The notes under the pieces were generated by a model. It searched no databases and was not told where the DNA came from. It was given only the letters and a program-made list of their open reading frames with translations. The position numbers and the translations under genes were made by a program. Positions 12,133 to 39,609 of a DNA stretch of 54,960 bases are shown one piece after another. This DNA is from an uncultured Eubacteriales bacterium (GTDB lineage: Bacteria > Bacillota > Clostridia > Christensenellales > CAG-138): the NCBI GenBank assembly GCA_902765005.1, contig CACWYB010000013.1, positions 1 through 54,960 on the forward strand, given 5' to 3'. Each line of letters starts with the position of its first letter. Position 1 is the stretch's first letter.

Positions 12133-12177
12133 TGGCCTCCCCGGTGGGATTCGAACCCACGGCCTTCCGCTTAGGAG
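12133..12177 (-). repeat. att copy 1: 3' half of tRNA-Arg(CCU)
   Basis: Forty-five bases match the end of the intact tRNA at 39533-39577 from CCA through the last base of the anticodon loop (TTAGGAG), with one difference in the T-stem. Identity stops exactly where the 5' anticodon stem should begin (cccatg instead of gcggac). This is the pattern left by tyrosine-recombinase integration into a tRNA anticodon loop. It marks the boundary between islands D and A. Confidence 0.92.
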
Positions 12178-12243
12178 CCCATGAAGCATGTGTTAAAAAA
12201 GCCAGATACTTAGCGAAAAATGTTAATTATGTAAAATGGGTGT

Positions 12244-12313
12244 GTGCCACTGATGCCGTAGATGCCGCTTATGCCGTGAGTGCCACCGAAAATGTGGTCA
12301 AATCTGTGCCCAA
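12244..12313. repeat. Iterons and arm-type repeat pair, island A left end
   Basis: Five consecutive 9-bp units fit RTGCCRYNN: GTGCCACTG, ATGCCGTAG, ATGCCGCTT, ATGCCGTGA, GTGCCACCG (12244-12288). They are followed by ATGTGGTCAAA and TCTGTGCCCAA with an 11-bp period (12292-12313). Similar blocks occur at other island ends, which suggests binding sites for an integrase or excisionase. Confidence 0.6.
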
Positions 12314-12354
12314 GCTTTGCTATTTGTGCAAGCCTTTGCAAAGAACCCCGCATC

Positions 12355-12381
12355 AAAAAGAGCCAGCGATTGATCGCTGGC
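12355..12381 (-). terminator. Terminator of the island A minus-strand operon
   Basis: GCCAGCGAT (12362-12370) and ATCGCTGGC (12373-12381) form a perfect 9-bp stem. Read on the minus strand it is followed by TCTTTTTG. It lies about 78 bases after the RraA-remnant stop. Confidence 0.8.
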
Positions 12382-12458
12382 TTACTGAGTGGGAAAAGGA
12401 GATCAACCCACCCAGACATCCCTGTTTTCATGCCCTAGATTATTCGAAAATGTAGATA

Positions 12459-12761
12459 TCAAGGCTCATAGACATCATCGATTATTTCGTAGTCCTTGGC
12501 TTCCAGGGGCTTTTCGACCCAGGCCCGGTTGGCGGTGCCGTTGCAGGCTGCCAGCAGCTTTTTCTCGTCCGCAGCCTGGAACGCTTTGGCCTTCTCCAAA
12601 ACCCAGGCAGCGTCCTTGCGGGGGATGCAGATGATGCCGTCGGGGTCGGCCAGGATGATGTCGCCGGGGTTCACGCTGATGCCGCCGCAGGAGATGGGCA
12701 CGTTGATCTCACCCGGGCCTTCCTTGTAGGGGCCGCCGGGGGTGGTGCCGGTGAAGTTCAC
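12459..12761 (-). pseudogene. RraA-like aldolase family, C-terminal half only
   Basis: About 100 residues match the end of the RraA/4-hydroxy-4-methyl-2-oxoglutarate aldolase family: TGTTPGGPYKEGPGEINVP, GGISVNPGDIILADPDG and IPRKDA. The first half of the roughly 220-residue fold, with its substrate and metal residues, is absent. Upstream the frame continues about 30 residues of unrelated sequence to a stop near 12855. The GTG at 12761 is therefore not a natural start. It lies downstream of the MFS gene in the sigma-54 operon and is probably non-functional. Confidence 0.8.
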
Positions 12762-12876
12762 AGGGAAATCCCACTTATGGGAACTTGGAATCAGGAATCT
12801 CGTTTCTCTATTGCATCCCAGTGCCCGTTTCGTGCTTTTCAGGAGTTGTATGGACTAAATAGTGTTTCCCGGCCTT

Positions 12877-14016
12877 TCAGTGTTTTGTACTGCTCCTCAT
12901 GGATGTCGATATCCCGGTGATCCCGCCGATCAGCATTGCTACAGCGCCTATCAGGAACTGACTGTCAACAGGTATGCAGAGCCATTGTATGATCCCATTG
13001 TTGACGACCGGAGACAGGAACTGCCCAATCTGACATATACAACAGAATACGGTGATCGCCATTGTGACCTGCTGTGCGGAAACGGATGCAGATGCCTGAA
13101 GGTATCCTGCCGGCATCCGGATGGAGAAGATGAACCCCAGGATTATCGCAGCCGCAAACGCCGCTGTCTTTCCTGGAAATAAGTAGACTATGAGAAGGCC
13201 GATTCCCCCTGCAAGGCACAGGAGCGGAAAGGTTTTTTGTCTGAATCGGTTGATGACCGTCCCACAGAGCAGTCCGGATATGATCCCTGTCGCGGACAGG
13301 ACGGACAGAATCGTTCCTGCCAGTCCGGCATCACCTATCCTGTGGCTGTCCAGGAATGCGGCCACGTTGTTCTGAAACACAAAGAAGAACAGGCAGAACA
13401 CGAACCCCAGGCAGGATATTCCGACCAGCTTCCTGTTCATGAGGTCTTTCGCACCGCTCTTGCCCAGTTTCTCAGTGAGCTCCCCTTCGGGCAGGAAGAA
13501 CGATACCGCGATGACAGGTATGAACAGAAGGAATACATAGAAAACGTGCCACCACTCCCCCTTCGCCAGGATACCTCCCAGATAGGAAAAGCATGCTCCG
13601 CCGATACCGATCACCACTGACTGGAGCCCAAGCATATACGGCTGTTTTTTCTCCTCATAGTGTTCTGCGATCAATGCTGAGCTAATCGGTGCTATGCCGC
13701 CGTATCCCAGCCCCGTGAACGCCATCGAAATGAGGAGCGCATAAAAACGGTCATGATACAACAGCGGGCACAACCCTGCGATGCACATAATGGACAGGGA
13801 GAAAAGCACGATCTGCTTCTTACGGAACCAGGCAGTCAGATGACCCGACAGCAGAATGGCTGGCAGCGCAATCAGGGATGGCAGCGACGTCAGAAGTTGC
13901 ACAGCAGACTCTGACCTGTCCGGAAAAGCCTGCGCTATCTGTCCGAGCCCGGCAGCAACAGCCAGGATATAGGTGATGATAAAGGACGGTGCCAGTACCG
14001 TAATCGCTTTTTTCAT
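12877..14016 (-). CDS. MFS transporter
   Basis: A 379-residue carrier with about eleven or twelve hydrophobic segments. The MFS loop between helices 2 and 3 is recognisable (SGHLTAWFRKKQIVLF), followed by GLGYGGIAPISSALIAEHY. ATG 14016 follows AAAGGGGG. It is the third gene of the operon from the sigma-54 promoter, 76 bases after gltS across a GC-rich hairpin. The substrate is unknown; the neighbours suggest an organic anion or amino acid. Confidence 0.87.
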   Translation of the reverse strand: MKKAITVLAPSFIITYILAVAAGLGQIAQAFPDRSESAVQLLTSLPSLIALPAILLSGHLTAWFRKKQIVLFSLSIMCIAGLCPLLYHDRFYALLISMAFTGLGYGGIAPISSALIAEHYEEKKQPYMLGLQSVVIGIGGACFSYLGGILAKGEWWHVFYVFLLFIPVIAVSFFLPEGELTEKLGKSGAKDLMNRKLVGISCLGFVFCLFFFVFQNNVAAFLDSHRIGDAGLAGTILSVLSATGIISGLLCGTVINRFRQKTFPLLCLAGGIGLLIVYLFPGKTAAFAAAIILGFIFSIRMPAGYLQASASVSAQQVTMAITVFCCICQIGQFLSPVVNNGIIQWLCIPVDSQFLIGAVAMLIGGITGISTSMRSSTKH

Positions 14017-14045
14017 GGGAACTTGCCCCCTTTGGTAAAACTAAG

Positions 14046-14074
14046 GGCGGGCCGCCAGCCTATAGCAGCCCGCC
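14046..14074. other. Intercistronic GC hairpin
   Basis: GGCGGGC (14046-14052) pairs with GCCCGCC (14068-14074) in the gap between the symporter and the MFS gene. No T-run follows in either direction, so it is more likely an RNA-stability or processing hairpin than a terminator. Confidence 0.45.
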
Positions 14075-14092
14075 GCGAAACAGAATGGTAGA

Positions 14093-15484
14093 TTATGCCT
14101 GTTCAAATGCGTCTTCCGGCATCGCCCCGCGCTCGTTGAGGGGGACTTTATAATGCCACCATCCAAATATACGGGCGAGGACGTTCATAACCACGAGGAT
14201 GCCCAGGCAAATGCCGATGATCTGCCAGTGCTTCCCTGTCATAAGCATGATGGGGCCGAAACCGTAGATCAGGGACTGGATGGGGTTCATGAACGGATTC
14301 TGGAGCGCGAAGTCATTCAGTGCCTTGGACTTGCCGTCGGGATCTACGATCCTGAGCAGGATCATGCCGGTGGCAGAGACGCCGAAGGACATGCCGAGGT
14401 GGAGCATGCCGCGTTCAAACCAGCTCTCCTTGAAGTAGCCCCTGGCGAAGAAGAACCAGCAGAGGACGTTCGTGATGATGCCGAATACGAACAGCATGAT
14501 CAGGGGAACGGCGTAGGTCGCGACCACGCTGATCTTGATGGAAGCAACGCCGAAGAACACCAGAAGGTCCGTCGCCGTGCCGCTGATCCGGGAGAATACC
14601 TTCGTGTCGATGTAGCGGTACACACCGCGTTTCTTGCCGCGGGAGAAAATGACGAACATCAGGAAGCCGCAGAGGAACGTGCAGAGGAAGTCGGGGATGC
14701 TCAGGGATGAGACCTTTTTGATCCCCTGGCAGAGGTAATAGCCGGCGCCGGTGGCGATGAGCGCCCAGCCGAGGTGCCAGGCAAGGGAATCCAAAGTGAC
14801 GGGAGCAATGGTCTGCTTGCCCATGGACTGCCTCTGCTCTTCGGGCACCAGGCCTGTCAGCATGTCGGCGGGGATCTTGGAGCTGTCCTCCAGGTACTGC
14901 GTGTAGCCTTTCTTTGTAGCCCACTTGATCAGGGCAAGGCCGACAAGGATGCCCGCGAGGATGCCGACCGTGGCGGACGTCATGCCAAGGTCGGTGGCGT
15001 CAGCGAATCCCTGCTCGGCAAAGGTCTTGCCGATAGCGGCGGCAGTGCCATGGCCGCCGGCAAAGCCGGCCATCAGCAGGAAGCCGAAGCCCTTGTTGAT
15101 CTGGGGGAAGAGCGACGAGATCACCAGGATGGAGAAGGTGCAGCCCAGGACAACCTGCCAGCAGACGCCTCCGAGCATCATCGCGCCCATGCCGTATACG
15201 CGGCCGACCTCGTTCTTGAGGTCCTTCTTGTTGATGGAGAACCCGCTCACGCCGATGCACGCGAAGACCAGCATGATGAGCACGCCGGAATAACTGCCGA
15301 TACTGTCGGAGAACGGGATAACGTTTAGGACCTGCTTGCCGAGGATCAGTCCCAGGAACCCTGCGATCAAGGCAGACGGGACGAAGCATTTCTGAAGGAA
15401 TTTGACTTTCGTACGTATAAACTGGCCGATGGCGATCAACCGCCCGGCCCATGCGACGTCAAGCATCAAAGATGTAGCAGTCAT
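14093..15484 (-). CDS. gltS: Sodium/glutamate symporter family protein (GltS-like)
   Basis: A 463-residue membrane protein of the ESS (GltS) family: about ten or more helices in two inverted halves, each with a glycine-rich re-entrant region (LLMAGFAGGHGTAAAIGK in the first half, LHLGMSFGVSATGM in the second). It should import glutamate or a related dicarboxylate with Na+. AAAGGAG precedes ATG 15484, 32 bases after the cyclodeaminase stop, so it is the second gene of the sigma-54 operon. Exact substrate is uncertain because the family also moves other acids. Confidence 0.88.
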   Translation of the reverse strand: MTATSLMLDVAWAGRLIAIGQFIRTKVKFLQKCFVPSALIAGFLGLILGKQVLNVIPFSDSIGSYSGVLIMLVFACIGVSGFSINKKDLKNEVGRVYGMGAMMLGGVCWQVVLGCTFSILVISSLFPQINKGFGFLLMAGFAGGHGTAAAIGKTFAEQGFADATDLGMTSATVGILAGILVGLALIKWATKKGYTQYLEDSSKIPADMLTGLVPEEQRQSMGKQTIAPVTLDSLAWHLGWALIATGAGYYLCQGIKKVSSLSIPDFLCTFLCGFLMFVIFSRGKKRGVYRYIDTKVFSRISGTATDLLVFFGVASIKISVVATYAVPLIMLFVFGIITNVLCWFFFARGYFKESWFERGMLHLGMSFGVSATGMILLRIVDPDGKSKALNDFALQNPFMNPIQSLIYGFGPIMLMTGKHWQIIGICLGILVVMNVLARIFGWWHYKVPLNERGAMPEDAFEQA

Positions 15485-15516
15485 GATATTTCTCCTTTCA
15501 AATTAATAAACGCTGT

Positions 15517-16641
15517 TTAGACCCAGTGGGGTTCATCCCAGAACTTGAACCAGGTTCCGATGCCCTTTTCAAGGGCAGTCTGATACACTTCATAGATCCA
15601 GCCGACGTCTTCGAGGCTGAGACCGGAGGAAAGGAATATGTTGTGATGGGTGTCGTTCTTCCTGAGATTGACTTTGCCGCCCACGACATCGCCTAGTTCC
15701 ACTGCTTTTTCGGGGATCTTTCCGGCTTCGACCAGCTTGAAGTACTGGTAGGAGGACCATTGCTTCGCGAATTCCTGGATCACGCCGTTCTCCGTGGCGG
15801 AAGCCATGTTGTCCTTGTGCATGCCTACGCAGTCGATAACGATCCCGGTATCGGGATCCTCAAGCAGCTCGTCGTCCACCAGGCCGCCGCCGGTGATCAG
15901 GATGGTCGCCCCGGGGCGGAGCCATTCCGTCTTGATGTACGCGGGGTTCGTGCCTGAGGAGGCGAGGCTGATGGCGTCGCTGTTCCTCACCAGTTCCTCC
16001 ATAGAGTGGACTACCGTCATCTTTATGCCCGTATCCGCCTCCATCTCCTTCGCAAACTTCTCCGACCTTTCCTCAACGATATCATAAATGAATACTTCCC
16101 GGCAATTCGGCATCGTTTCGATGAGGCTCAAGCAGCATGCGTGGCTGATGACGCCGGCACCGACGATACCCACGGTCTGCGCCGTGGACGCCTGCAGGTA
16201 CTTGTTTGCGACGCCCGGCATGGCGCCCGTACGCATGGTGCTCAGGATACAGCCCTGCATGATAGCAAGAGGTGCGCCGGTATCGGTATCGCTCAAAAAC
16301 GCGGTAAGGATCGAACGCGGCATCCCGTTCTTCAGGTTTTCCCGGTTCGAGCCGTAGAACTTGCCGCCGCAGGCACGGAAGCGCCCGCCCAGGTACCCGC
16401 ACATCGCAACGTAACGGCGGTCAGGGGTGTTCTTCGGCATGGTCGGCACCGGCGGATTGTCGGGGAACGTCACGACGCCGCCGTGGGCAACGCCATCCCC
16501 GCCGCACATGCGCCAGTCGCCGGTCGCATATACCCGGAAGACATCCTCCATGGTGGCAACGCATTTCTTCATGTCCAGGCCGCCGGCGGCGATCACATCG
16601 TCTTCCGACAGCAGCAAGGTTTCCAGCTTCCTGTCACTCAT
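15517..16641 (-). CDS. Ornithine cyclodeaminase / mu-crystallin family dehydrogenase
   Basis: A 374-residue NAD(P)-binding protein. The Rossmann motif VGIVGAGVISHACC is at about residues 153-166, and MRTGAMPGVANKYL before it is typical of the OCD/mu-crystallin family. Database names for close relatives include 'tyramine oxidase subunit B', which I would not take as a function. Likely chemistry is imine reduction or amino-acid cyclisation or deamination. ATG 16641 follows AGGAGG. It is the first gene behind the -24/-12 promoter at 16696-16711 and sits divergently from the activator gene. Confidence 0.87.
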   Translation of the reverse strand: MSDRKLETLLLSEDDVIAAGGLDMKKCVATMEDVFRVYATGDWRMCGGDGVAHGGVVTFPDNPPVPTMPKNTPDRRYVAMCGYLGGRFRACGGKFYGSNRENLKNGMPRSILTAFLSDTDTGAPLAIMQGCILSTMRTGAMPGVANKYLQASTAQTVGIVGAGVISHACCLSLIETMPNCREVFIYDIVEERSEKFAKEMEADTGIKMTVVHSMEELVRNSDAISLASSGTNPAYIKTEWLRPGATILITGGGLVDDELLEDPDTGIVIDCVGMHKDNMASATENGVIQEFAKQWSSYQYFKLVEAGKIPEKAVELGDVVGGKVNLRKNDTHHNIFLSSGLSLEDVGWIYEVYQTALEKGIGTWFKFWDEPHWV

Positions 16642-16695
16642 ACATATCCCTCCTGAAATCTGATTGAAAGAGTATCCTCTTCTACCGATATATGT

Positions 16696-16711
16696 AGCAA
16701 AATCCGTGCCA
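16696..16711 (-). promoter_or_regulatory. Sigma-54 (-24/-12) promoter
   Basis: On the minus strand TGGCACG-GATT-TTGCT matches the sigma-54 consensus TGGCACG-N4-TTGCW at every position. It would start transcription about 44 bases before the cyclodeaminase ATG. The adjacent genes encode an enhancer-binding protein and RpoN, which supports the call. Confidence 0.92.
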
Positions 16712-16740
16712 ACTTTTACGGCCGCAATACCAGCCTTATA

Positions 16741-16755
16741 TTCTTAAATTGAGAA
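16741..16755. promoter_or_regulatory. Putative enhancer site 1 for the sigma-54 activator
   Basis: TTCTTAAATTGAGAA is an imperfect inverted repeat 30 bases upstream of the -24 element. It matches the reverse complement of the site at 16895-16909 at 14 of 15 positions. Two copies of the same palindrome in one divergent spacer are what an enhancer-binding protein needs. Confidence 0.65.
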
Positions 16756-16836
16756 TGAACCCCGTTGATCTGCCCGGTTTCATCTCCCTTCCTTTCCTTT
16801 TCTTCTCGCTAATTCTCCGATTTTTTATTATAATTC

Positions 16837-16866
16837 TTGCTTTTTTACGTGGATATGTAGTACAAT
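16837..16866 (+). promoter_or_regulatory. Possible sigma-A promoter of the activator gene
   Basis: TTGCTT (16837-16842), an 18-base spacer and TACAAT (16861-16866) lie 61 bases upstream of the activator ATG. The second palindrome (16895-16909) is just downstream, so the activator could repress its own synthesis. Confidence 0.5.
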
Positions 16867-16894
16867 GGCGATAGTTCTCAAATCGATATTGATA

Positions 16895-16909
16895 TTCTCA
16901 TTTTAAGAA
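16895..16909. promoter_or_regulatory. Putative enhancer site 2 / autoregulatory site
   Basis: TTCTCATTTTAAGAA is the partner of the palindrome at 16741-16755. A half-site TTCTCA also occurs at 16875-16880. It sits between the activator's likely promoter and its ribosome site (AAAGGAGG, 16913-16920). Confidence 0.6.
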
Positions 16910-16926
16910 TTTAAAGGAGGGCAAAT

Positions 16927-18696
16927 ATGTCGAGCTTGCTGGAACAGGATAAGGAATTTCTGCAGGCGCTGCTGGAAGCCAACAGGACGATGATCAACCT
17001 GTCCATGCAGATCATCGACAGCGACCGTTTGTGCGTAGCCGCCTCTGGTGCCGAGTCCGTCAAGAACTGCATCGGGAAATACAGCCGCCCGGACGGGGCC
17101 ATCGCCCGCCATTACTTGAAAGGCGTTCGACGGGTCACGATCTCCCATCCCGGGGAAAGCGAGAACTGCATCGGGTGCGCCGACTACAAATCCTGCCCGC
17201 GGTCCCTATACAACGTCGCCGTCTTCGCGCAGATCATCGTTGACGGAGAGATCATCGGCGTGCTGGGGGCAATGGCCAACGACAAGGAGTCGAACGACCT
17301 GATCCTTAAGAAGGAAAAGGCCGTTTACGACTATGTGGAATCGCTGGCCGACCTGATCGCTCACCGGGTATCTGACTTCAAGCGCGCGGGAAAGATGTCC
17401 CTCCTGAACTCACTGCTTTCAAAGACGATCTCCTCCATCCCCCAGGGGCTTATCGTGCTGGATACGGAAAACAGGATCACGATGCTGAACACGCTCTTCA
17501 TGAACTATATAGGGGACAGTGCTTCCTCTTATGTGGGCAGGCATATTTCGGCACTGTTTCCGAAGCTGGACGATGACTATATCGCCTTCCACCTCGACGA
17601 CCACCGGTACCATGAGCTCCGGTACAACGCGCTGCATTTTACGGCCGAATTCGTCCCCCTGCTGAGCGGGGACAGGAAGGAAGGGCTGCTGATCTACCTG
17701 GACGAGAGCAAGGCGACGTACAGCAAGGCTTGGGAGATGACGGACGCCTCCGTTGACATAACCTTTGAAGACATACTCGGGGAGGATCCCGCCTTCCTCG
17801 ATTTCAAGCGCCAGGTCCGCTCCGTCGCCGGGTTCGACTCCACCATCCTTCTCACCGGCGAGACCGGTGTCGGCAAAGAGATGTTCGCCCGGGCGATCCA
17901 CAACTACTCCCCCCGCAAGACGGCTCCCTTTGTTGCCATCAACTGCGGGGCGATCCCCGATACGCTTATTGAGAGCGAGCTTTTCGGCTATGACAAAGGA
18001 GCTTTCACCGGAGCCTCCTCCCAGGGAAAGCACGGCAAGTTCTTCATGGCCAACGGGGGCACCCTGTTTCTGGATGAAGTGGAGAATACGCCCCTGTTCA
18101 TGCAGCAGAAACTCCTTCGTGTCCTGGAGACCGGCGAATTCGAGCGCGTCGGGGGTACAAAAAGCATAAAGGTGGATGTGCGCATCATTGCGGCAAGCAA
18201 CGGGCACCTCGACGAGATGGTGAAGAACGGTACCTTCCGCAAGGACCTCTTCCACCGCCTGAGCGTCCTGCCGTTCCTGATCCCGCCCCTCAGGGAGCGG
18301 GGCGGCGACGTCCTGCTCCTTGCGGACCATTATCTCCGCCGCTACAGCGTCCGGTACAAGAAACAGGTTCTGGGCCTGGACGACGACCTCAGGAATTACT
18401 TTCTCAGCTATGCTTGGGAGGGGAACATCCGCGAGCTCCAGAACGTTATCGAATACGCTGTCAGTATGTGCAGCGGGAACCGGCTGAGCATGTGTGACCT
18501 GCCTTACTTCATGCATCCCGGCACAGCCGCGAGCCCCCAGAAGTCACTGCATGAGGTGGAGAACGAGTATATACGGAAGATAATTGCCTCAACAGGATTC
18601 GGAAACGCCCGGGAACGCGCCGACGCCGCCGCTATCCTGGGCATCTCACAGGCAACCCTGTACAGAAAGCTCAAGGAGTTCGACATCCAGCCATGA
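16927..18696 (+). CDS. Sigma-54-dependent enhancer-binding transcriptional regulator
   Basis: A 589-residue activator. Residues 1-150 form a sensor with a cysteine cluster (ENCIGCADYKSCP, about 79-91) that may bind a metal or ligand. A PAS-like domain (about 160-275) follows. The AAA+ core has Walker A GETGVGKE at about 311-318, the sigma-54-contacting GAFTGA near 358-363 and Walker B GGTLFLDEVE. A Fis-type HTH closes the protein (AAAILGISQATLYRKLKEF). Strong AAAGGAGG before the ATG. Its stop overlaps the rpoN start as ATGA. It should open the divergent -24/-12 promoter in response to a signal, perhaps the amino or dicarboxylic acid handled by that operon. Confidence 0.95.
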   Translation: MSSLLEQDKEFLQALLEANRTMINLSMQIIDSDRLCVAASGAESVKNCIGKYSRPDGAIARHYLKGVRRVTISHPGESENCIGCADYKSCPRSLYNVAVFAQIIVDGEIIGVLGAMANDKESNDLILKKEKAVYDYVESLADLIAHRVSDFKRAGKMSLLNSLLSKTISSIPQGLIVLDTENRITMLNTLFMNYIGDSASSYVGRHISALFPKLDDDYIAFHLDDHRYHELRYNALHFTAEFVPLLSGDRKEGLLIYLDESKATYSKAWEMTDASVDITFEDILGEDPAFLDFKRQVRSVAGFDSTILLTGETGVGKEMFARAIHNYSPRKTAPFVAINCGAIPDTLIESELFGYDKGAFTGASSQGKHGKFFMANGGTLFLDEVENTPLFMQQKLLRVLETGEFERVGGTKSIKVDVRIIAASNGHLDEMVKNGTFRKDLFHRLSVLPFLIPPLRERGGDVLLLADHYLRRYSVRYKKQVLGLDDDLRNYFLSYAWEGNIRELQNVIEYAVSMCSGNRLSMCDLPYFMHPGTAASPQKSLHEVENEYIRKIIASTGFGNARERADAAAILGISQATLYRKLKEFDIQP

Positions 18697-20481: not shown

Positions 20482-20482
20482 T
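20447..20482. terminator. Bidirectional terminator hairpin next to att copy 2
   Basis: AAAAAGCC and GGCTTTTT flank a 19-base loop region that itself pairs partly (aaaaac/gtttt). It sits directly before the tRNA 3' end copy, like the hairpins at the other att copies. Confidence 0.65.
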
Positions 20483-20526
20483 GGCCTCCCCGGCGGGATT
20501 CGAACCCACGGCCTTCCGCTTAGGAG
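20482..20526 (-). repeat. att copy 2: 3' half of tRNA-Arg(CCU)
   Basis: All 45 bases are identical to the end of the intact tRNA (39533-39577), from CCA to the anticodon loop. Identity stops at the base where the 5' anticodon stem would begin (cggaac versus gcggac). It separates islands A and B. Confidence 0.95.
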
Positions 20527-22801: not shown

Positions 22802-22838
22802 TTTCTTCCCTCCCAAAGTTTGCCTCTTCTCTCCTGCA

Positions 22839-29240: not shown

Positions 29241-29251
29241 GGAGGCGCCCC

Positions 29252-32037: not shown

Positions 32038-32130
32038 CGAATGGCGTCAGCAAACGAGCATAAGAGAGGCAGAGCAGGCTCTCTGCCTCTTTCTGTATCA
32101 AGTACAGCATCTAGAAGGAGACAGTTTGAA

Positions 32131-33756
32131 ATGATCCCTCTCTATGAAGATAGAAAAAGCAGAAAACAGAACAAGCAGCAGCGCGCCGCCGCCTTTGCCG
32201 CTGGCAAACACGTCCCAACCTCGCAGATCACCCAGCTGCTGTCTGCCCTGATCGAACCGAACGACACCGTGCTGATGGAGGGCGACAATCAGAAGCAGGC
32301 CACATTTTTGGCAAAAGCTTTGACCACGCTCGATCCCTCCGCCGTCCATGACCTGCATCTGATCATTCCCAGCCTGCAATTGGATGAACACCTGGAGCTA
32401 TTCCAAAAGGGCATCGCTTCTACGCTGGACTTTTCCTATTCCGGCAATCAGAGCAAGAGCATCGTTACCATGATCCGCTCCGGAAAGCTCGCCATTCGTT
32501 CCCTGCAGACCTTTATGGAGCTATACGGTCGGCTGTTCATCGATCTCTCCCCGGACATCTGCCTGATTGCCGCTGAAGCAGCTGACGCGGAAGGCAACCT
32601 ATATACCGGCGGCAACACAGAGGATACTCCGGTTTTGGTCGAGTCTACCGCCTTTCGGGAAGGCATCGTTATCGCCCAGGTCAATGAAATCGTGGATTCA
32701 GTGCCGCGGGTGGACATTCCCGGTTCCTGGGTGGATTATGTGGTACAAGCGGACGAGCCCTGCCTGATTGACCCGATCTTTACCCGCGATCCGGCGCTGA
32801 TCAAGGATGTGCATGTGCTCATGGCGATGATGGCCATAAAAGGCATCTATGCAAAGCACGCCGTCAAACGGCTCAATCACGGGATCGGCTTCAACACCGC
32901 AGCCATCGAGCTGCTGCTCCCCACCTATGGTGAACAGTTGGGACTGAAGGGGAAGATCTGCACGAACTGGATGCTCAACCCTCACCCAACCCTCATTCCA
33001 GCTATCGAAAGTGGCTGGGTAGATTCTGTCCTCGTGCCGGGCGGGGAACTTGGCATGGAGACGTATACGGCAGCCCATCCCAACATCTTTCCCTTGGGGC
33101 GGGACGGTTCCCTCCGCTCCAATCGGGCCTATTCTCATATGGCGGGTCAGTACGGGCTGGACATGTTTATCGGCGCCACGCTGCAGATGAACGCTCTGGG
33201 GGATTCCTCCACCGTAACTTCCACCCGGTTGACCGGGTTCGGCGGAGCTCCGAATCTGGGCAGCAATCCAAACGGGCGGCGGTATGCAAACGAATCCTGG
33301 ATCAGCATGCACACAAAGAGCTCGCCGGATCGCGGCAGAAAATGCGTGGTGCAGATGCTGCAGACCACTTCTTCCCGCGGCCCCAATTTCGTGGAAACTC
33401 TCGACGCGGTGGAGATGGGGAAAACGGTAGGCCTGGCGGAAACGCCGATCATGATCTATGGAAACGACACCTCCCATATCGTAACAGAAAAGGGAATAGC
33501 CTATCTCTACCTGGCGGATTCTGTAGAGACACGAAAGAAGATGGTGGCCGCTGTGGCGGGCGATACGCCCATAGGCAGAAGCATATCGCCGGATGAGATC
33601 GACGTCTTGCGGAAGAAGGGGTACGTAGCCTTTCCGGAGGACCTGGGCATCGATCCCGCATCGGCGACCCGCGATTGGCTGGCAGCGAAGAATCTTGAGG
33701 ACTTGGTCATCTGGTCCAAAGGGTTATACCATATTCCCGACAAGCTGAAAAAGTAG
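32131..33756 (+). CDS. mdcA: Malonate decarboxylase alpha-subunit-like CoA/ACP transferase, copy 2
   Basis: About 541 residues, closely similar along its whole length to copy 1: VLMEGDNQKQATFLAKALTT, NTEDTPVLVE, NHGIGFNTAAIELLLPTYGE, TRLTGFGGAPNLGSNP and THxVTE-type ending SHIVTEKGIAYLY. It is the last gene of the tct operon, 93 bases after capA. I chose ATG 32131 (MIPLYEDRK) behind AGAAGGAG; an in-frame ATG at 32041 lacks a ribosome site. The partner subunits of malonate decarboxylase are absent here too. It may load CoA onto the imported carboxylate. Confidence 0.9.
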   Translation: MIPLYEDRKSRKQNKQQRAAAFAAGKHVPTSQITQLLSALIEPNDTVLMEGDNQKQATFLAKALTTLDPSAVHDLHLIIPSLQLDEHLELFQKGIASTLDFSYSGNQSKSIVTMIRSGKLAIRSLQTFMELYGRLFIDLSPDICLIAAEAADAEGNLYTGGNTEDTPVLVESTAFREGIVIAQVNEIVDSVPRVDIPGSWVDYVVQADEPCLIDPIFTRDPALIKDVHVLMAMMAIKGIYAKHAVKRLNHGIGFNTAAIELLLPTYGEQLGLKGKICTNWMLNPHPTLIPAIESGWVDSVLVPGGELGMETYTAAHPNIFPLGRDGSLRSNRAYSHMAGQYGLDMFIGATLQMNALGDSSTVTSTRLTGFGGAPNLGSNPNGRRYANESWISMHTKSSPDRGRKCVVQMLQTTSSRGPNFVETLDAVEMGKTVGLAETPIMIYGNDTSHIVTEKGIAYLYLADSVETRKKMVAAVAGDTPIGRSISPDEIDVLRKKGYVAFPEDLGIDPASATRDWLAAKNLEDLVIWSKGLYHIPDKLKK

Positions 33757-33992
33757 TATTGTAACATTCGGTAAATTGTCAAACCCCTAACACAAACTCA
33801 TAGTCAAGTTGCTTTTTTCGATCCTGCCAATCAGGCATATGCATCGTTAATAAATCATTGAAATCCTTAATAATGTATATTTTTGGATAAAATGCATATT
33901 TTGTTCGTCGTTAAAATGAAAATGTTGCACCTATGTTGCACCAAAAGACAACACAAAAAAGTCCGAAAAACATAGAGTTTTTCGGACTTTTT
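33757..33992. other. Right end of island B
   Basis: AT-rich, no gene. It contains the arm-type pair ATGTTGCACCT/ATGTTGCACCA (33922-33943) and a long hairpin (33955-33993) abutting att copy 3. Confidence 0.65.
33922..33943. repeat. Arm-type repeat pair, island B right end
   Basis: ATGTTGCACCT followed by ATGTTGCACCA, an 11-bp tandem with one difference, lies 50 bases from the att core. It is the clearest example of the repeat family found at the island ends. Confidence 0.65.
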
Positions 33993-33993
33993 T
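33955..33993. terminator. Bidirectional terminator hairpin next to att copy 3
   Basis: A 17-base arm reading AAAAAAGTCCGAAAAAC pairs with GTTTTTCGGACTTTTTT around a 5-base loop. A- and T-runs at the ends allow termination on both strands, and it touches the att core. Confidence 0.85.
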
Positions 33994-34037
33994 GGCGTCC
34001 CCGGCGCGATTCGAACGCGCGGCGTTCCGCTTAGGAG
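33993..34037 (-). repeat. att copy 3: 3' half of a variant tRNA-Arg(CCU)
   Basis: A 45-base copy ends at the same anticodon-loop base as copies 1 and 2. It has several substitutions against the local tRNA (gcgtcccc for gcctcccc, and a T-stem of GCGCG/CGCGC in place of GTGGG/CCCGC). The T-stem changes are paired, so this is the end of a different functional tRNA-Arg gene, not a decayed copy. Confidence 0.9.
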
Positions 34038-34105
34038 CCTAAGCTGATTGCAACTAATAATGCTAGAGATTATCGAAAAAATCCCTGAAACAGGCTCTTT
34101 TTCGA

Positions 34106-34175
34106 GGTCCACTGATGCCATGAATGCCATAAGAGTCATGAAAGGACACAAAAATGTGGTCATCATGTTGTCAAA
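34106..34175. repeat. Iterons and arm-type repeat pair, island C left end
   Basis: GGTCCACTG, ATGCCATGA, ATGCCATAA and GAGTCATGA have a 9-bp period (34106-34141). ATGTGGTCATC and ATGTTGTCAAA follow with an 11-bp period (34154-34175). The order (iterons then arm pair) equals that at the island A left end. Confidence 0.6.
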
Positions 34176-34201
34176 AGTTGTTTCAGCAACTATACAGAAA
34201 G

Positions 34202-34231
34202 AAGGGACTGTGAAAACAGTCACGGTCCCTT
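34202..34231 (-). terminator. Terminator of the mannosidase/GPH operon
   Basis: A 12-bp stem (34202-34213 with 34220-34231, one G-U pair) around a 6-base loop is followed on the minus strand by TTCTTTCT. It lies about 120 bases after the transporter stop. Confidence 0.7.
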
Positions 34232-34353
34232 CGTTAAGGCAGGAAGCGAATTCTTTTTTCGGTTCTTCCCGGAAACCGGTCGAAGATAAAGGATCGGAAG
34301 CAGGCAAGTGCAGATTATAGATTAAGCGGTATGCTTTTTGCAATAATACCCTA

Positions 34354-35769
34354 TCAGATTTTCTTTCCGCCAAGGGCGATCTCTGCTTCCTCGCGGCTGA
34401 TTTCGCAGGCGTTGGCTTTGGCCATGATCTGCGCATCCTTGGTTCTTAATCGATAGCCGATGAGTAAAAGCGCGATGGATGCGGCAACGCCGATGAGAGG
34501 AATCAGGGTATTCATATACCAAACGCCTCTTAGAGTCCCAGATGTCTGCGCAGCATCGCTGCCGGATTGGAAGCCAATGAAGCCAAGTAACAGCATACCT
34601 ATGGCAGTGGAAATAGCGCTGGTGAATTTAGCAGTAAAGGTCTGCACAGAAAAAGCAACGCCCTGATTGCGCTGGCCGGTCGCATAGTGGCCGTATTCCG
34701 CGCAGTCAGCAATGAACATAGCTCCCGTAACGGCGCCTGCGCTTCCGAAAAGCGTTTTGATCGCGCACATCGTAAGGTAGAGAGGAATATTCTCGTAGCC
34801 TGTGTAAAAAATAATGATACCGAAGATGATGTTGGAAACGCAAGAAGCGATGTAAACCCAGAACTTGTCGAACTTCTTCAAAAGACATTTCGTCAGAAGG
34901 ATGGAGAGGAATGCTGGCGGAACGGCTAAAATGGCCATGTAGGTGATGTAGTCCTCGCTGCCTAACAGATAGATTGCCACGTAGTTGCCGGCGGTTCCGC
35001 TTGTCGCAGTCAGCGAAGCAACGATAGAGGCAAGGCTGATAATGAGCAGGGGCTTATTCTTGACCAGATAGCGGCCCATCTCCTTGAAGGACGGCTCTTT
35101 CTCGGGTGCGCTGATGTAGCGTTCCTGCGCCTTAAAGCCGACAGGAAGCATGGTCGCCAAGGAAATGATCGACATGATAACGGCCGTCGGTCCCCAGCCG
35201 ATCCTGGGATAAAGCATCGGCACAAAGAGAACAATCAGAACACCGATATAGCCGAAGACGGTCTTCTTAATGAAGAGTCCGTCACGCTCCTTGACATTAT
35301 CCGTCATACAGGTAGCAAGAGCGTGGATCGGCACGTCACAGATCGTATACGCCAGATCCCACAGCATGTAGCCGATGAGCAGCCATATGATCTTCGCAGT
35401 GTTACCGAATGAATCCGGCATGATGAATACGAAGATGGTGGTGAGTGGAATCATGACGGTGGAGATGCGTACCCAGGAAAGGTACTTATGTTTGAAGATC
35501 TGTTTTTTGTCGATAAAGATTGCGAACAAAGGGTCATTGACCGCATCCCAAACTTTTGCGACAAACAGAATGGCGGAGATGACGAAGGCGGCGATGCCGG
35601 ATTCGGTCATAAACAGCGAGATGTAGCTGGAGACCATGCCGTACATGATCAGCTGACCGATGAAATAGAAGCCGAAGGTGAATTTCTCGCCTTTCGGGAT
35701 ACGGGCGACGACTTCTTCGGTTGCGCCGGTTTCCGTCGCTTGCTTGGTTTTCTCGAAGTTTTCTTCCAT
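34354..35769 (-). CDS. GPH family glycoside:cation symporter
   Basis: About 471 residues and twelve helices of the glycoside-pentoside-hexuronide family. The N-terminal GFYFIGQLIMYGMVSSYISL and FVAKVWDAVNDPLFAIFIDK (the family's DxxxDP cation site) are clear. It would import a small mannoside with Na+ or H+. I chose ATG 35769 (MEENFEK) behind AAGGGG; an earlier in-frame ATG at 35799 lies inside the mannosidase gene. It is the second gene of the operon, 11 bases after the GH2 stop. Confidence 0.93.
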   Translation of the reverse strand: MEENFEKTKQATETGATEEVVARIPKGEKFTFGFYFIGQLIMYGMVSSYISLFMTESGIAAFVISAILFVAKVWDAVNDPLFAIFIDKKQIFKHKYLSWVRISTVMIPLTTIFVFIMPDSFGNTAKIIWLLIGYMLWDLAYTICDVPIHALATCMTDNVKERDGLFIKKTVFGYIGVLIVLFVPMLYPRIGWGPTAVIMSIISLATMLPVGFKAQERYISAPEKEPSFKEMGRYLVKNKPLLIISLASIVASLTATSGTAGNYVAIYLLGSEDYITYMAILAVPPAFLSILLTKCLLKKFDKFWVYIASCVSNIIFGIIIFYTGYENIPLYLTMCAIKTLFGSAGAVTGAMFIADCAEYGHYATGQRNQGVAFSVQTFTAKFTSAISTAIGMLLLGFIGFQSGSDAAQTSGTLRGVWYMNTLIPLIGVAASIALLLIGYRLRTKDAQIMAKANACEISREEAEIALGGKKI

Positions 35770-35780
35770 ATCGTTTCCCC

Positions 35781-38321
35781 TTACATAAATAGTTTGCACA
35801 GGATATAGGTGAGCCAGTTCTTGCCTGACCAGAAAATGGAGCGACGTAGTTTTCTTTCCTCGCGGGCGGTGAGATAGGTTTCGATATCTGCCACATTCTG
35901 TATGGTCAGAGTGCTCGCAACTGAGTCGATCGAAACTGAATCATCCACATCGGCTGTAAAGACGGCGGTTGCTCCGGGTAGGATGGTGATGTAGTTATCG
36001 TCCCAGGCGGAAGCCAGCGCATCACTGTCAACGAAGACATAACGGGCGTAGCAATCGGATGTGATACGTACAACGGCTTTGCCGTTTTCTTTTGTGACAT
36101 TAACAGTGAATTTAGGTTTAGGCAGCCTAGCTTCTTTGTCGGGTACGAGCAGATAAGACTTTTCATCCACAATGCACTCGTTGTTCTTCAGCACCACATT
36201 GATAAAGCAGTCTTTGATATCGATTCCTTTCAGATCCTTTTTGAAGTTCACATTAACTGCCTTTACAGATGCGACGGCGCCAACGGTTACATTGCGTGCT
36301 CCTTCCGCAAGTTTTTTTCCGTAGAAATCGAAGACGGTCCATTCCAGTATCAGATCAAAGGAATGGTTGAACTCATTGATGACATAGAGGTCGATGTCGC
36401 TCTTGTGGTAGTCGTTGGAGACCATCAGCATCTTGTTGAACAATCCGGAATGATAGAGAACGGCCTTTTTCTGCTTATTGTAATCCACTGCAGCCCAGGA
36501 GGCAACCGGCCAGCAGTCGTTCAGCTGCCAGTAGAGAGCTCCGTTCTGGTGGCCGATATTGCGCTTCCAGCACTCCGTCGCGTATCGAACAGTATCAGAC
36601 TGCACGATCTGGGAGAGATAAACGAAATCCTCAAATTTTTTGGGTTCCTTATATTTGGCGAGCAGGTAATAATCCATCTTCTCGTTGCCGCTGCCATTTT
36701 TCTGGTGAAGCAGCATTACGGGGTCCAAAAGCTTGATTTCGCCCTCGGGATGGAAGGAGCGAATCGTTTTCATAACAGGCATGGATTCCATACCGAATTC
36801 ACTACAGAAACGCGTGTTGTAATGAGCAAAATCTTCGATGGGAAACATGCCATGCCAGATGGACCAAAGATGCGTATCGCCCTTGACCTTGCCTATCCTA
36901 TTGCCGGACTTAACCTTATACCGGCCGCTTCCCGGCGAACCCGGCCAATAGGGCGTTACTTGATCAAATTCCTTGACCATATCACGCAGTTCAAAATGGT
37001 AGAAGTGAATGTTGGTCTCCGCAAGCTCTCCGGCGCTCCTTCGAACAAAGCCCATAGCCGCTTCGCACTCATTGTTGGCGCACCAGATGGCTAAGGACGC
37101 ACGATGGCGCAAGCGCCTTACGTTATCTTTGATTTCTAAATGAATGTTCTCAACGAATTCGGGTTGATCGAAAGGATAGATATTGCAGGCAAAAAGGCAA
37201 TCCTGCCAGACCAGGATGCCCATTTCATCACAGGCATCATAAAAATACTCGTCTTCGAAATACCCTCCGCCCCATACGCGAATCATGTTCATGTTGGCCT
37301 TTTGACATTCCCGTATGTACCAGTAGTAATCTTCCCGGGTCGTACGCTGAATAAAGGAATCGGCGGGAATCCAGTCGCCGCCTTTGCTGAAAATCGGAAC
37401 GCCGTTGACGACAAAGCGGAACTGTTCGCCCCAATCATCGGGTTTAGTATCAAGCTCGATGGTGCGAAGGCCGATGCGCTTGCATATGCGGTCCTGTTCG
37501 GTTTCTCCGGTCTTCAGAAAGGCCTCCACGCTATAGAGCGGCTGATCACCTAAACCGTTGCACCACCACAGTTCGGGATTCTCCACAAGAACGGTCTTTT
37601 TGAAACTCCTGTCTTGCTTCTCCAAGACATAGTTAGAGGCGCTCCCGTTCGGTGCCGTGAGCGTGACCTCGCAGAAGGTCGCCTCCGTTATTTCAAGCGG
37701 TGTAACTTCAAAGGAAAGGCTCACGCCTCCGTCCTTATGAATCTGTTCGATACGAATATCGTCGATTCTGTTATCATAGGCTTCGAAGCCGATAGAACGC
37801 ATTACTCCTGCCGGCGCAAGCTGCGGGCCCCAGTCCCAGGAAAAATGGCAGGGAGTTTTTCGGATGTGACCAACGAGTGGGAATGGGATACCCTTTTCAA
37901 GAATCGGGTGCGCCGCCTGACGTTCCTTCATGACCTCATAAGGATCTCGAATTTCAAGGCGGATGCAGTTATCACCCGCCTGCAAAAGAGGTTTCGCGTC
38001 AAAACGGTAGGTGCGGTTGATGTTTTCTGCATGTCCCAAAAGCTGGTCGTTCAGATAGATATCCATCACAGTATCAAGCCCGTCGCCAACAAAATCTACA
38101 TGCTTGTAAGCAATCGTTTCTGCCTGAATGATGAAGGTCCGGGAATAGGTGTAATCATGGTGGGCAAGCTCGGTAGCTTTGGTCTCGTTTTCGCCGTAGA
38201 AAGGATCCTCCATCCCGTTTCTCATATAATCAAGATAGGTACAGCCGGGCAGAACGCCGGGGATCGGCTCTCCCCCATCCTGCGAAAGAAACCAGTCACC
38301 CTTCAGATCAACTTTTCGCAT
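35781..38321 (-). CDS. GH2 beta-mannosidase
   Basis: About 846 residues with the GH2 layout: a jelly-roll domain (LKGDWFLSQDGGEPIPGVLP onwards), Ig-like domain, TIM barrel, then C-terminal sandwiches. RVWGGGYFEDEYFYDACDE opens the barrel. The acid/base Glu is in WCANNECEAAMG, and the nucleophile Glu is in FCSEFGMES. It cleaves beta-mannosides in the cytoplasm (no signal peptide). GGAGG is placed ideally before ATG 38321 (MRKVDLKG), so I prefer it to ATG 38333, which would contain that site. It is divergent from the araC gene and first in the operon with the GPH carrier. Confidence 0.93.
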   Translation of the reverse strand: MRKVDLKGDWFLSQDGGEPIPGVLPGCTYLDYMRNGMEDPFYGENETKATELAHHDYTYSRTFIIQAETIAYKHVDFVGDGLDTVMDIYLNDQLLGHAENINRTYRFDAKPLLQAGDNCIRLEIRDPYEVMKERQAAHPILEKGIPFPLVGHIRKTPCHFSWDWGPQLAPAGVMRSIGFEAYDNRIDDIRIEQIHKDGGVSLSFEVTPLEITEATFCEVTLTAPNGSASNYVLEKQDRSFKKTVLVENPELWWCNGLGDQPLYSVEAFLKTGETEQDRICKRIGLRTIELDTKPDDWGEQFRFVVNGVPIFSKGGDWIPADSFIQRTTREDYYWYIRECQKANMNMIRVWGGGYFEDEYFYDACDEMGILVWQDCLFACNIYPFDQPEFVENIHLEIKDNVRRLRHRASLAIWCANNECEAAMGFVRRSAGELAETNIHFYHFELRDMVKEFDQVTPYWPGSPGSGRYKVKSGNRIGKVKGDTHLWSIWHGMFPIEDFAHYNTRFCSEFGMESMPVMKTIRSFHPEGEIKLLDPVMLLHQKNGSGNEKMDYYLLAKYKEPKKFEDFVYLSQIVQSDTVRYATECWKRNIGHQNGALYWQLNDCWPVASWAAVDYNKQKKAVLYHSGLFNKMLMVSNDYHKSDIDLYVINEFNHSFDLILEWTVFDFYGKKLAEGARNVTVGAVASVKAVNVNFKKDLKGIDIKDCFINVVLKNNECIVDEKSYLLVPDKEARLPKPKFTVNVTKENGKAVVRITSDCYARYVFVDSDALASAWDDNYITILPGATAVFTADVDDSVSIDSVASTLTIQNVADIETYLTAREERKLRRSIFWSGKNWLTYILCKLFM

Positions 38322-38358
38322 AAAATCCTCCATATCGCAGAATCAAGCAAGTTTGATT

Positions 38359-38386
38359 ATTGTATATCATAGCTCTACGATGTAAA
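38359..38386 (-). promoter_or_regulatory. Likely promoter of the mannosidase operon
   Basis: On the minus strand TTTACA (38381-38386), 16 bases, TACAAT (38359-38364). It overlaps the first two ATATCATAG repeats, as expected for a site controlled by the neighbouring AraC protein. Confidence 0.5.
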
Positions 38387-38415
38387 ATATCATAGATGTA
38401 TGTTTTATATCATAG
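38364..38415 (+). promoter_or_regulatory. Three ATATCATAG direct repeats (candidate AraC operators)
   Basis: ATATCATAG occurs at 38364-38372, 38387-38395 and 38407-38415, at spacings of 23 and 20 bases, in the short spacer between the araC gene and the mannosidase gene. Direct repeats about two helical turns apart are typical of AraC-type binding. Confidence 0.7.
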
Positions 38416-38425
38416 AGGTGAACAT

Positions 38426-39160
38426 ATGTTTGAAAGAGCAAATGAATACGTTAACAACGTAAAACGAAGCGGTTTTACACATCACAAGTATGAGATAGAG
38501 CAAAACCCTGCCGCTATTTTTGATGTCAGTCCGGAAGTGGTGGAATCCTGGATTCATACAGATGTGCTTTCAAAAAAGATCATGTTTCCCTATGCGGAAA
38601 TACTCGGTCCAAACACGCTTCGCGGCATGAAAAATTGTGTCATTACTTTTCTGGTGACCTTTTCACGTGCCGCGATTCGAAGAGGCGTGGACTACGAGAC
38701 TGCTCTTTGCCTGAGTGACTTCTATATCAATGAGTTGGAGGCTTGCATGAATGAGAACGAGGTGGCTGCGGTAAGCGCCGATCTTTTGCGTCATTACTAT
38801 CTTTTAGCCAACCAAAAGAAGAAAACAAAGCATTCCTATCATGTTTCGAATGCAATTGTTTATATCAGACAGAACATCTTCAATCCCCTTTCCGTAACGG
38901 AAATAGCGAAAAATGAAGGTCTTGAGAAGCATTATTTTTCCACGCTTTTCAAAAACGAAACTGGTCAATCGCCATCTGCCTTTATTCTGACTGAGAAGCT
39001 TAAGCAATCCGAGGAAATGCTGAAGGATCGCAAAAAAAGTGTTACCGAAATAGCATACACCTTGTGCTTTTGCAGCGCCTCTCATTTTTGTCGCGCTTTC
39101 CGAGAGCACATTGGCATGACACCATTGGAATACCGCAAAAAGTATTACTCCCAATTCTGA
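38426..39160 (+). CDS. AraC family transcriptional regulator
   Basis: About 244 residues. A C-terminal double HTH begins near residue 140: PLSVTEIAKNEGLEKHYFST, then KSVTEIAYTLCFCSASHFCR, ending in the hallmark FREHIGMTPLEYRKKY. The N-terminal domain is not a recognisable cupin and contains several cysteines. ATG 38426 follows GAGGTG; an in-frame ATG at 38396 lies among the operator repeats and is rejected. It is divergent from the mannosidase operon and probably its activator. Confidence 0.92.
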   Translation: MFERANEYVNNVKRSGFTHHKYEIEQNPAAIFDVSPEVVESWIHTDVLSKKIMFPYAEILGPNTLRGMKNCVITFLVTFSRAAIRRGVDYETALCLSDFYINELEACMNENEVAAVSADLLRHYYLLANQKKKTKHSYHVSNAIVYIRQNIFNPLSVTEIAKNEGLEKHYFSTLFKNETGQSPSAFILTEKLKQSEEMLKDRKKSVTEIAYTLCFCSASHFCRAFREHIGMTPLEYRKKYYSQF

Positions 39161-39251
39161 TAAAGACGGGAACGAAAGCCTCATTCAGTACGAGGATTCG
39201 TATTAGAATAGCCGTAAACGCATTAACCAAAAACAGCCCTTCCTGAACAAA

Positions 39252-39273
39252 ATATGGTACATATGTGGTATTA
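39252..39273. repeat. Arm-type repeat pair, island C right end
   Basis: ATATGGTACAT and ATGTGGTATTA form an 11-bp tandem about 56 bases from att copy 4. The second unit matches the units at 20308-20327. Confidence 0.5.
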
Positions 39274-39292
39274 GGAAATATATCACATAATA

Positions 39293-39329
39293 AAAAGCCC
39301 AAAAAAACTTAGAGTTTCTGGGCTTTTTT
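39293..39329. terminator. Bidirectional terminator hairpin next to att copy 4
   Basis: AAAAAGCCCA and TGGGCTTTTTT flank a partly paired loop and abut the att fragment, closely resembling the hairpin at att copy 2. Confidence 0.7.
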
Positions 39330-39350
39330 GGCCTCCCCGGCGGGATTCGA
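39329..39350 (-). repeat. att copy 4: 22-base fragment of the tRNA-Arg 3' end
   Basis: It is identical to the tRNA end from CCA to the middle of the T-loop (tggcctccccggcgggattcg in plus orientation, then a), after which unrelated hairpin sequence begins. The anticodon-side half of the att core has been replaced. Confidence 0.85.
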
Positions 39351-39372
39351 CCTGCGCTGCGACGCAGGCCTT

Positions 39373-39419
39373 GCCCGCGGCTCTCAAGCCCCACAGGGGC
39401 TTGATTCACTCCCGCGGGC
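39373..39419. other. Nested double hairpin
   Basis: An outer stem GCCCGCGG (39373-39380) / CCGCGGGC (39412-39419) encloses an inner stem CAAGCCCC (39385-39392) / GGGGCTTG (39396-39403), both 8 bp and perfect. Another hairpin, CCTGCG/CGCAGG (39351-39368), precedes it. The function is unknown; the structure overlaps the first 54-bp repeat. Confidence 0.7.
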
Positions 39420-39514
39420 GTTCGAATCCCTTCTATTCCATGCAAACAAAAGGACCGCCACACTCCCGCGGGCGTTCGAATCCCTTCTATTCCATGCAAA
39501 CAAAAGGACCGCCA
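39407..39514. repeat. Perfect tandem repeat, 2 x 54 bp
   Basis: Positions 39407-39460 and 39461-39514 are identical. Each unit contains a T-loop-like GTTCGAATCCC and ends in ggaccgcca. The flank stem matches do not form a functional tRNA. The second copy runs into the terminator before tRNA-Arg. Confidence 0.9.
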
Positions 39515-39532
39515 CTCGGGCGGCCCTTTTTT
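39503..39532 (-). terminator. Terminator of tRNA-Arg
   Basis: Directly after the tRNA on the minus strand a GC-rich stem (GGGCCGCC ... GGCGGTCC) is followed by TTTTGTTT. On the plus strand it also ends in a T-run, so it works in both directions. Confidence 0.75.
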
Positions 39533-39609
39533 TGGCCTCCCCGGCGGGATTCGAACCCACGGCCTTCCGCTTAGGAGGCGGACGCTCTATCCTGCTGAGC
39601 TACGGAGAG
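39533..39609 (-). tRNA. tRNA-Arg, anticodon CCU
   Basis: A complete cloverleaf on the minus strand: acceptor CTCTCCG pairs with CGGGGAG, the D-arm is GCTCAGCAGGATAGAGC, the anticodon stem TCCGC/GCGGA encloses loop CTCCTAA (anticodon CCU, reading AGG), the T-loop is TTCGAAT, and CCA is encoded. It is the integration target: all att copies to the left are duplicates of its 3' half. The chromosome to the right keeps its 5' side. Confidence 0.96.

Follow-up and report, generated by a model that had tools for sequence, protein, structure and literature searches.

The islands at the ssrA gene of Dehalococcoides stand in tandem, are bounded by direct repeats of the 3′ end of an RNA gene and carry catabolic cargo; in the parts of the account cited here, 16 of them have a serine recombinase module next to att and 15 are without an integration module, the latter being, according to the authors, perhaps cis-mobilizable elements (PMC3146451). 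Cis-mobilizable elements (CIMEs) are portrayed, in the sections cited, as having no integration or transfer genes, retaining attL and attR and undergoing tandem accretion, with cases that accrete with an integrative and conjugative element (ICE) or an integrative and mobilizable element (IME) (PMC5704250). Additive flexible genomic islands, as outlined in excerpts of two papers, are marked by repeats of a tRNA gene's final bases and gain or lose cassettes by site-directed recombination (PMC10872708, PMC5217437). Tycheposons, cited in passing in PMC10872708 and PMC11389934, are tRNA-bounded cargo elements with metabolic genes that contain a tyrosine recombinase according to the relevant passage of PMC10872708. 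Clusters of attC sites lacking an integron integrase (CALINs) are, in the short account of PMC11389934, integron cassette arrays without an integrase. Here we describe a locus that shares features with these systems, a 54,960-nucleotide contig of an uncultured Eubacteriales bacterium (CACWYB010000013.1, assembly GCA_902765005.1) in which segments with metabolic genes are stacked at a tRNA-Arg(CCU) gene.

This entire contig is the window of our analysis (contig C13 of genome G000, which has 2.38 Mb in 45 contigs and is 77% complete). A core of 46 bases, equal to the 3′ half of tRNA-Arg(CCU), is repeated in three full copies and one truncated copy across 12132-39324, with copy-to-copy spacings of 8349, 13511 and 5332 bases that correspond to segments of 8.3, 13.5 and 5.3 kb. 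These copies and spacings agree with those given in an earlier, sequence-only reading of the window (the first-pass annotation), as does a fourth segment, which extends leftward until the contig ends. We interpret the locus as one of several arrays of CIME-like metabolic cassettes that would have been stacked at tRNA-Arg(CCU) by site-specific recombination and moved in trans, a reading based on sequence comparison to which we assign a probability of about 0.68. The layout is as follows.

12132..12177, plus strand: core copy 1 (att), one mismatch to the tRNA core
20481..20526, plus strand: core copy 2 (att), no mismatches to the tRNA core
33992..34037, plus strand: core copy 3 (att), second tRNA allele, GCG...CGC
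39292..39328, unstranded: hairpin or terminator at the left end of cassette 3
39324..39350, plus strand: truncated core copy; the insert after it contains a 54-bp tandem duplication
39533..39609, minus strand: tRNA-Arg(CCT) gene, the integration target (ARAGORN)
39688-41052: Mur ligase open reading frame (ORF; Pfam); the mur genes right of the tRNA are chromosomal

ARAGORN called no tRNA at any core copy, so the copies are tRNA 3′ halves only. Hairpins of differing sequence were read by eye immediately before 12132, 20481 and 33992. The tRNA-mur stretch is present in 8 of the 11 other genomes of the genus with DNA identity of 79-87%, and the G+C content is 61-72% right of 40 kb compared with 40-61% left of it. 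As the first-pass annotation had stated, no recombinase, relaxase or transposase was detected among the ORFs that were Pfam-scanned in 12.1-39.3 kb (the large ORFs and five small or overlapping ones), and tblastn with five integrases gave no match in the window. Conjugation genes were likewise not recognised among the window ORFs scanned. A genome-wide search gave three Phage_integrase matches in G000, all on other contigs.

Near-identical cassettes occur in distant species. Segment 3 matches G009 with 99.3% identity over 5.37 kb and is also carried by G010, where it is interrupted by a contig end. As a chromosome baseline, 20 stretches each from G000, G009 and G010, together with some further stretches, were compared by blastn (hits of at least 700 bases). 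The baseline identity is 82.6% (67.6-90.2) between G000 and G009 (26 stretches, 63.0 kb), 80.3% (69.5-93.8) between G000 and G010 (21 stretches, 59.0 kb) and 83.4% (67.4-88.1) between G009 and G010 (20 stretches, 50.8 kb). Because units lacking an integrase are 99% identical across species that are 80-83% identical elsewhere, recent movement of these units is needed. G009 and G010 have two successive cassettes in common, one of 10.66 kb at 99.5% and one cut by a contig end at 99.7%, after which the two genomes diverge at the core. The 10.66-kb cassette encodes a citrate transporter, citrate lyase ligase, CitX/CitG, a carbonic anhydrase and an iron-hydrogenase-type protein, as well as two ORFs without a Pfam match. 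No close match was found for segment 3 among plasmids or for segments 1-2 among phages.

The boundaries of these units coincide exactly with the cores. Calculated per 100 bp, the identity between segment 3 and its G009 counterpart is 0.94-1.0 just within the cores and 0.25-0.39 beyond them on both sides, with one 100-bp bin that spans the right end at 0.73. Segment 3 lies between segment 2 and the tRNA in the window, and adjoins the end of a gene that reads as glucose-6-phosphate-isomerase-like from its ORF in G009. The two core copies at its right end show six differences in the first 28 bases and are identical in the last 18, suggesting that the switch between parental sequences occurred near or after that point. 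The first-pass annotation had named segments that are never individually absent as an argument against an array and had called for att boundaries to be compared in relatives. We found segment 3 in G009 and G010 and the cargo block of segments 1-2 in none of the 11 other, mostly incomplete, genomes, and neighbours change exactly at the cores.

The core itself is widespread. When tRNA genes are counted and up to three mismatches allowed, it occurs at 31 places in all 12 genomes of the genus; a reversed control pattern gave no match in the same genomes, and a chance origin of the core copies is thereby excluded. In the wider family, core matches were found in 46 of 103 genomes, many of them with a single place. 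Two or more cores on one contig were found outside the genus in G012, G091, G102 and G110, and also in G062, there 71 kb apart and with a more divergent match. At one locus (L142), a cassette with the CCU core adjoins a tRNA-Arg(CCG) gene, so that stacking may cross tRNA targets. The small insert between the truncated core and the tRNA gene of the window (39351-39531) contains inverted repeats in addition to the 54-bp tandem duplication and looks like a small element that duplicates a tRNA 3′ end. A similar truncated core and insert are present at the equivalent position in G011, and inserts of like layout in G008, in G012 (three in tandem) and at L142, by tRNA-Arg(CCG).

The cassette ends were clustered, in a rough manner, for 39 cores (27 copies and 12 tRNAs) on 29 contigs, leaving out the truncated window copy; two of these contigs come from a named genome collection and may lie outside the genus. 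This yielded 20 left-end and 16 right-end families, which occur in differing combinations. Five of the 20 left-end families have more than one right partner, and nine of the 16 right-end families have more than one left partner (six of 12 when the four tRNA-gene families are set aside). For instance, contig G001:C33 repeats the first 317 bp of segment 2 and the last 391 bp of segment 1 with different cargo. The junction 20135-20797 is 97% identical in G001:C33 though both flanking cargoes differ, an identity for which we cannot account by exchange of a single cassette.

Many ends also carry repeats that resemble integrase arm sites, which we divided into class I (GTGGT/TGTTG half sites) and class II (TGCAGTCA repeats). 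With 180 bases scanned to the right of each core and 110 to the left, and one right end shorter than 150 bases dropped, arm pairs of either class were found at 15 of the 26 right ends and, on the left, at 13 of 39. The corresponding background is 0.5% and 0.2% in random windows and 0.9% and 0.2% in Markov shuffles. The offsets are regular: +117/118 for 11 of 12 right class I pairs, -67 to -73 for all eight left class I pairs and -86 for all five left class II pairs. Three such pairs are found in the window, where full cores flank cassettes 1 and 2, and a full and a truncated core flank cassette 3.

20644..20659, plus strand: right arm-type pair GTGGTGGAAAATGTTG of cassette 2, at +117 from the core
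33923..33938, plus strand: left arm-type pair TGTTGCACCTATGTTG of cassette 2, at -69 from the core
34156..34170, plus strand: right arm-type pair GTGGTCATCATGTTG of cassette 3, at +118 from the core

A scan of the named genome collection for the core plus arms returned 10 stretches on nine contigs, all titled as metagenome-assembled genomes (MAGs) of Clostridia or Clostridiales; three come from sheep jejunum or goat rumen and seven are RUG records, which we take to be a rumen series. Class I-like arms (GTGGTAAATGATGTGGT) were also seen at locus L183 of G099 beside tRNA-Asn, with an integrase about 1.1 kb off.

Remnants of an integrase adjoin several cores. An intact integrase of 385 aa (L134) stands at tRNA-Arg(CCG) in G001, where the tRNA is followed by a hairpin, then by TGCAGTCA arms and the integrase. 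The same order is found at a tRNA-Arg(CCU) core in G086:C15, with the integrase reduced to 194 residues, and shorter stubs adjoin cores in G091:C45 (91 aa), G012:C2 (53 aa) and G000:C34 (27 aa), the last with class I arms between stub and core; the four stubs are of one integrase family. No intact integrase with class I arms was found at this core in the loci examined. Given the stubs, the arm layout and this absence, the cassettes seem to be islands from which the integrase has gone while its sites remained. The end of a gene, which reads as a fructoselysine-type SIS gene, and the integrase stub next to it are 99% identical over 233 bp between G000:C34 (L104) and G012:C2 (L110), which belong to two genera. 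In G004, a different integrase ORF of 338 aa adjoins the mur-linked tRNA.

In the mechanism that we propose, site-specific recombination in the 3′ half of the tRNA gene would stack the cassettes at tRNA-Arg(CCU), and each cassette retains both att halves, consisting of the 46-bp core, the flanking hairpin and, in some, the arm-type repeats. Their ancestors may have been tRNA-Arg islands encoding a tyrosine integrase of the G001 tRNA-Arg(CCG) family, whose gene would have been deleted to a C-terminal stub and then lost. A visiting element with a matching integrase could still have the cassettes excised and inserted in trans; the action in trans, the helper and the currency of the movement are what we infer from the observed units.

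The first-pass annotation had suggested that one integrase elsewhere in the genome might serve the array. No such gene was found, and at least two classes of arm sites exist. All three tyrosine recombinases of G000 are without this core, and we rejected a single resident integrase. One of them lies at tRNA-Leu and two have no tRNA in their 1.5-kb flanks; only one arm-pattern match was seen among the three recombinases, a GTGGT pair located at the tRNA-Leu gene. The recombinase on C3, within a stretch conserved across most of the genus, is presumably Xer. The search for a recombinase with the same core, also proposed earlier, gave the 27-residue stub on C34 as the only tRNA-Arg-linked trace in this incomplete genome.

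Viral contigs were searched as well. One contig of the viral collection (L149) matches the core pattern with three mismatches and has an intact 422-aa integrase alongside. It shows GTTGCAC repeat pairs on both sides, at about -88 and +87, which resemble those of the cassettes with a different spacing, and two of its six other relatives show GTTGCAC repeats around other tRNA-like cores. A search of viral contigs for the core with GTTGCAC arms gave no match; the +87 repeat of L149 falls outside the spacing allowed. Phage vectors with class I arms were rejected, with 21 viral contigs matched and none carrying an integrase (tblastn, three queries); 20 of the 21 have a single site, and these matches are taken as chance. 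Three viral contigs that matched the core tail and an arm were rejected because no core is present, a class II arm search of viral contigs gave no match, and L134 has one distant relative among them at 29%.

Several observations weigh against mobile cassettes. The cargo of segments 1-2 was not found as a block in the 11 other genomes, most of them incomplete, the matches to 12400-31600 being segment ends, an RraA fragment (85-91% in four genomes) and, for one gene, a homologue at 72% in G001. The genus genomes look like MAGs, many of them incomplete. No arm pair was recognised at 11 of the 26 right and 26 of the 39 left ends, the motif was defined after inspection of the ends, and ends that are related do not count as independent, the class I right ends falling in four of 16 families. 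In cassette 1, the left pair GTGGTATTATGTGGT lies at -171, beyond the scanned window and not near -70, and the right end has an imperfect repeat only, a poor fit to the arm layout. That no intact integrase with class I arms was found at the core in the loci examined also counts against them. In an alternative history, the islands accreted with their integrases, lost them in place and are now immobile; any later spread would have been as part of bigger blocks, or through homologous recombination (by natural transformation or transduction) between cores and common ends. Such a history accommodates the integrase stubs and the gene fragments within segments (RraA, an aminotransferase and apparently GH3); the common ends of about 320-390 bp offer homology, the 20135-20797 junction is kept between different cargoes in G001:C33, and G009 and G010 have two neighbouring cassettes in conserved order. 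However, the outer flanks of segment 3 in G009 are unrelated down to the core, leaving homology no longer than the core there, and the 99% identity between otherwise diverged species needs recent movement of units without an integrase. We consider immobile islands of this kind unlikely.

Two further explanations are less likely still. Hairpins, as read by eye, directly precede many cores and could be folded recombination sites of an integron-like, single-strand mechanism, but the hairpins differ in their sequences and look like bidirectional terminators, and, judging by the arm-type repeats and by the phage homologue, the sites are likelier to be double-strand ones of a tyrosine integrase; we regard this mechanism as very improbable. 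The core sites (tRNA 3′ halves, some with arm repeats) appear unlike attC sites, no dedicated attC search having been made. The first-pass annotation had also allowed for the copies being decayed tandem tRNA-Arg genes, with segments of ordinary chromosome between them. The copies do match the tRNA, and G000 has another tRNA-Arg(CCT) locus; however, they end at the anticodon, the 5′ half is found in none, the T stem is fully paired in 23 of 25 readable copies and equals one of the two tRNA T stems in 20 of 25, and the segments vary individually. We rejected decayed genes on the missing 5′ halves and retained T stems, and give this explanation the least credence of all. Site-specific stacking of cassettes remains our preferred reading.

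The segments contain catabolic and transport genes, in agreement with the first-pass annotation.

256..12131, unstranded: fourth segment; glycoside hydrolases, FGGY kinase, MarR, flavin reductase, radical SAM; outer boundary beyond the contig
12178..20480, plus strand: cassette 1; RraA fragment, MFS, Glt_symporter family (Pfam, NCBIfam), dehydrogenase of the ornithine cyclodeaminase/mu-crystallin family, sigma-54 activator, sigma-54
20527..33991, plus strand: cassette 2; two malonate decarboxylase alpha-type proteins, truncated aminotransferase, MBL-fold fragment, two LysR, M20 peptidase, TctCBA transporter, PGA_cap protein
34038..39323, plus strand: cassette 3; MFS_2 sugar transporter, GH2 mannosidase-like protein, AraC regulator

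Pfam supports the earlier assignment of a separate regulator to each segment, namely an enhancer-binding protein (EBP) with RpoN, two LysR and AraC. The MBL-fold fragment (22839-23255, 138 aa) is similar to the C-terminal part of subclass B3 families, scores far under every curated cut-off and is probably a gene remnant.

Cassette 1 carries sigma-54 together with its activator and candidate regulatory sites.

16696..16711, minus strand: -24/-12 promoter match TGGCACGGATTTTGCT; the divergent dehydrogenase ORF 15517-16641 lies 55 bp downstream
16740..16756, unstranded: palindrome ATTCTTAAATTGAGAAT, candidate activator site; a second at 16894-16910 in the same gap
16927..18696, plus strand: sigma-54-dependent activator (EBP), PF00158 at 2e-67, with GAFTGA and Walker A motifs
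18693..20054, plus strand: sigma-54 (RpoN), TIGR02395 at 345 bits compared with a cut-off of 277

The sigma-54 profile was detected in one of 12 genus genomes, in cassette 1 only, and in none of the four genus genomes with a completeness of 90% or more and a contamination of 5% or less; in the family it was found in eight of 103 genomes. A TGGCAC-type site was seen near the sigma-54 gene at four of eight other loci. The window has one exact -24/-12 match compared with 0.07 expected, and two with one mismatch compared with 1.9 expected. The palindrome pattern, which was written after the gap had been read, occurs at two places (both strands) compared with 0.06 expected, and the palindromes are likely the activator site. 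From this arrangement we infer that sigma-54, activator and promoter may form a self-contained regulon.

If cassettes move as proposed, gut Clostridia exchange metabolic capacity in units without mobility genes, which are invisible to gene-based finders of mobile elements, and the layout of core and arm repeats offers a sequence signature for locating such units elsewhere. Sigma-54, activator and target promoter on one cassette would amount to a mobile unit with its own RNA polymerase specificity. More tentatively, the arrays could form a genus-wide pool in which cassettes have standard double-stranded att ends and depend on a helper; comparable to a superintegron built on tRNA genes, this pool would trade complete operons between species and could bring an entire orthogonal transcription system, sigma-54 with its activator and promoter, to a lineage otherwise without sigma-54; we see this as possible, with the odds somewhat against it.

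The open-licence literature searched yielded no paper that deals with arrays of this kind in Clostridia of the rumen. From the cassette-array reading of the first-pass annotation, accretion at one tRNA and individual variation of segments stand, whereas the single resident integrase and the lack of a named precedent do not: the Dehalococcoides ssrA islands, CIMEs and additive flexible genomic islands, as far as the cited accounts describe them, are close precedents. Like the ssrA islands, the cassettes are tandem, bounded by RNA-gene 3′-end repeats, catabolic in cargo and, like 15 of those islands, without an integration module; 16 of the ssrA islands in that account carry a serine recombinase module, whereas in this genus no intact cognate integrase was found and many sites have arm repeats that resemble those of tyrosine integrases. 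As in the CIMEs outlined in the source cited, putative attL and attR sites are retained, integration and transfer genes were not found and accretion is in tandem, but those accrete with an ICE or IME, whereas the arrays here recur across a genus and include units common to different species. Additive flexible islands likewise gain and lose cassettes at a tRNA with tRNA repeats, the present comparison being of species and not of strains; arm sites, end families and integrase stubs are not given in the cited descriptions of them. The tycheposons of the passages cited share tRNA-bounded metabolic cargo, with the difference that a tyrosine recombinase was found in none of the cassettes here. CALINs, in the outline available, are also cassette arrays that depend on an integrase in trans, as would be the case here; they use attC sites and the integron integrase, whereas the present cassettes are multi-gene operons with regulators. 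The kind of system is thus already known in the sources cited, and the new parts are integrase-less units with a retained arm layout throughout a genus and a cassette that bears sigma-54.

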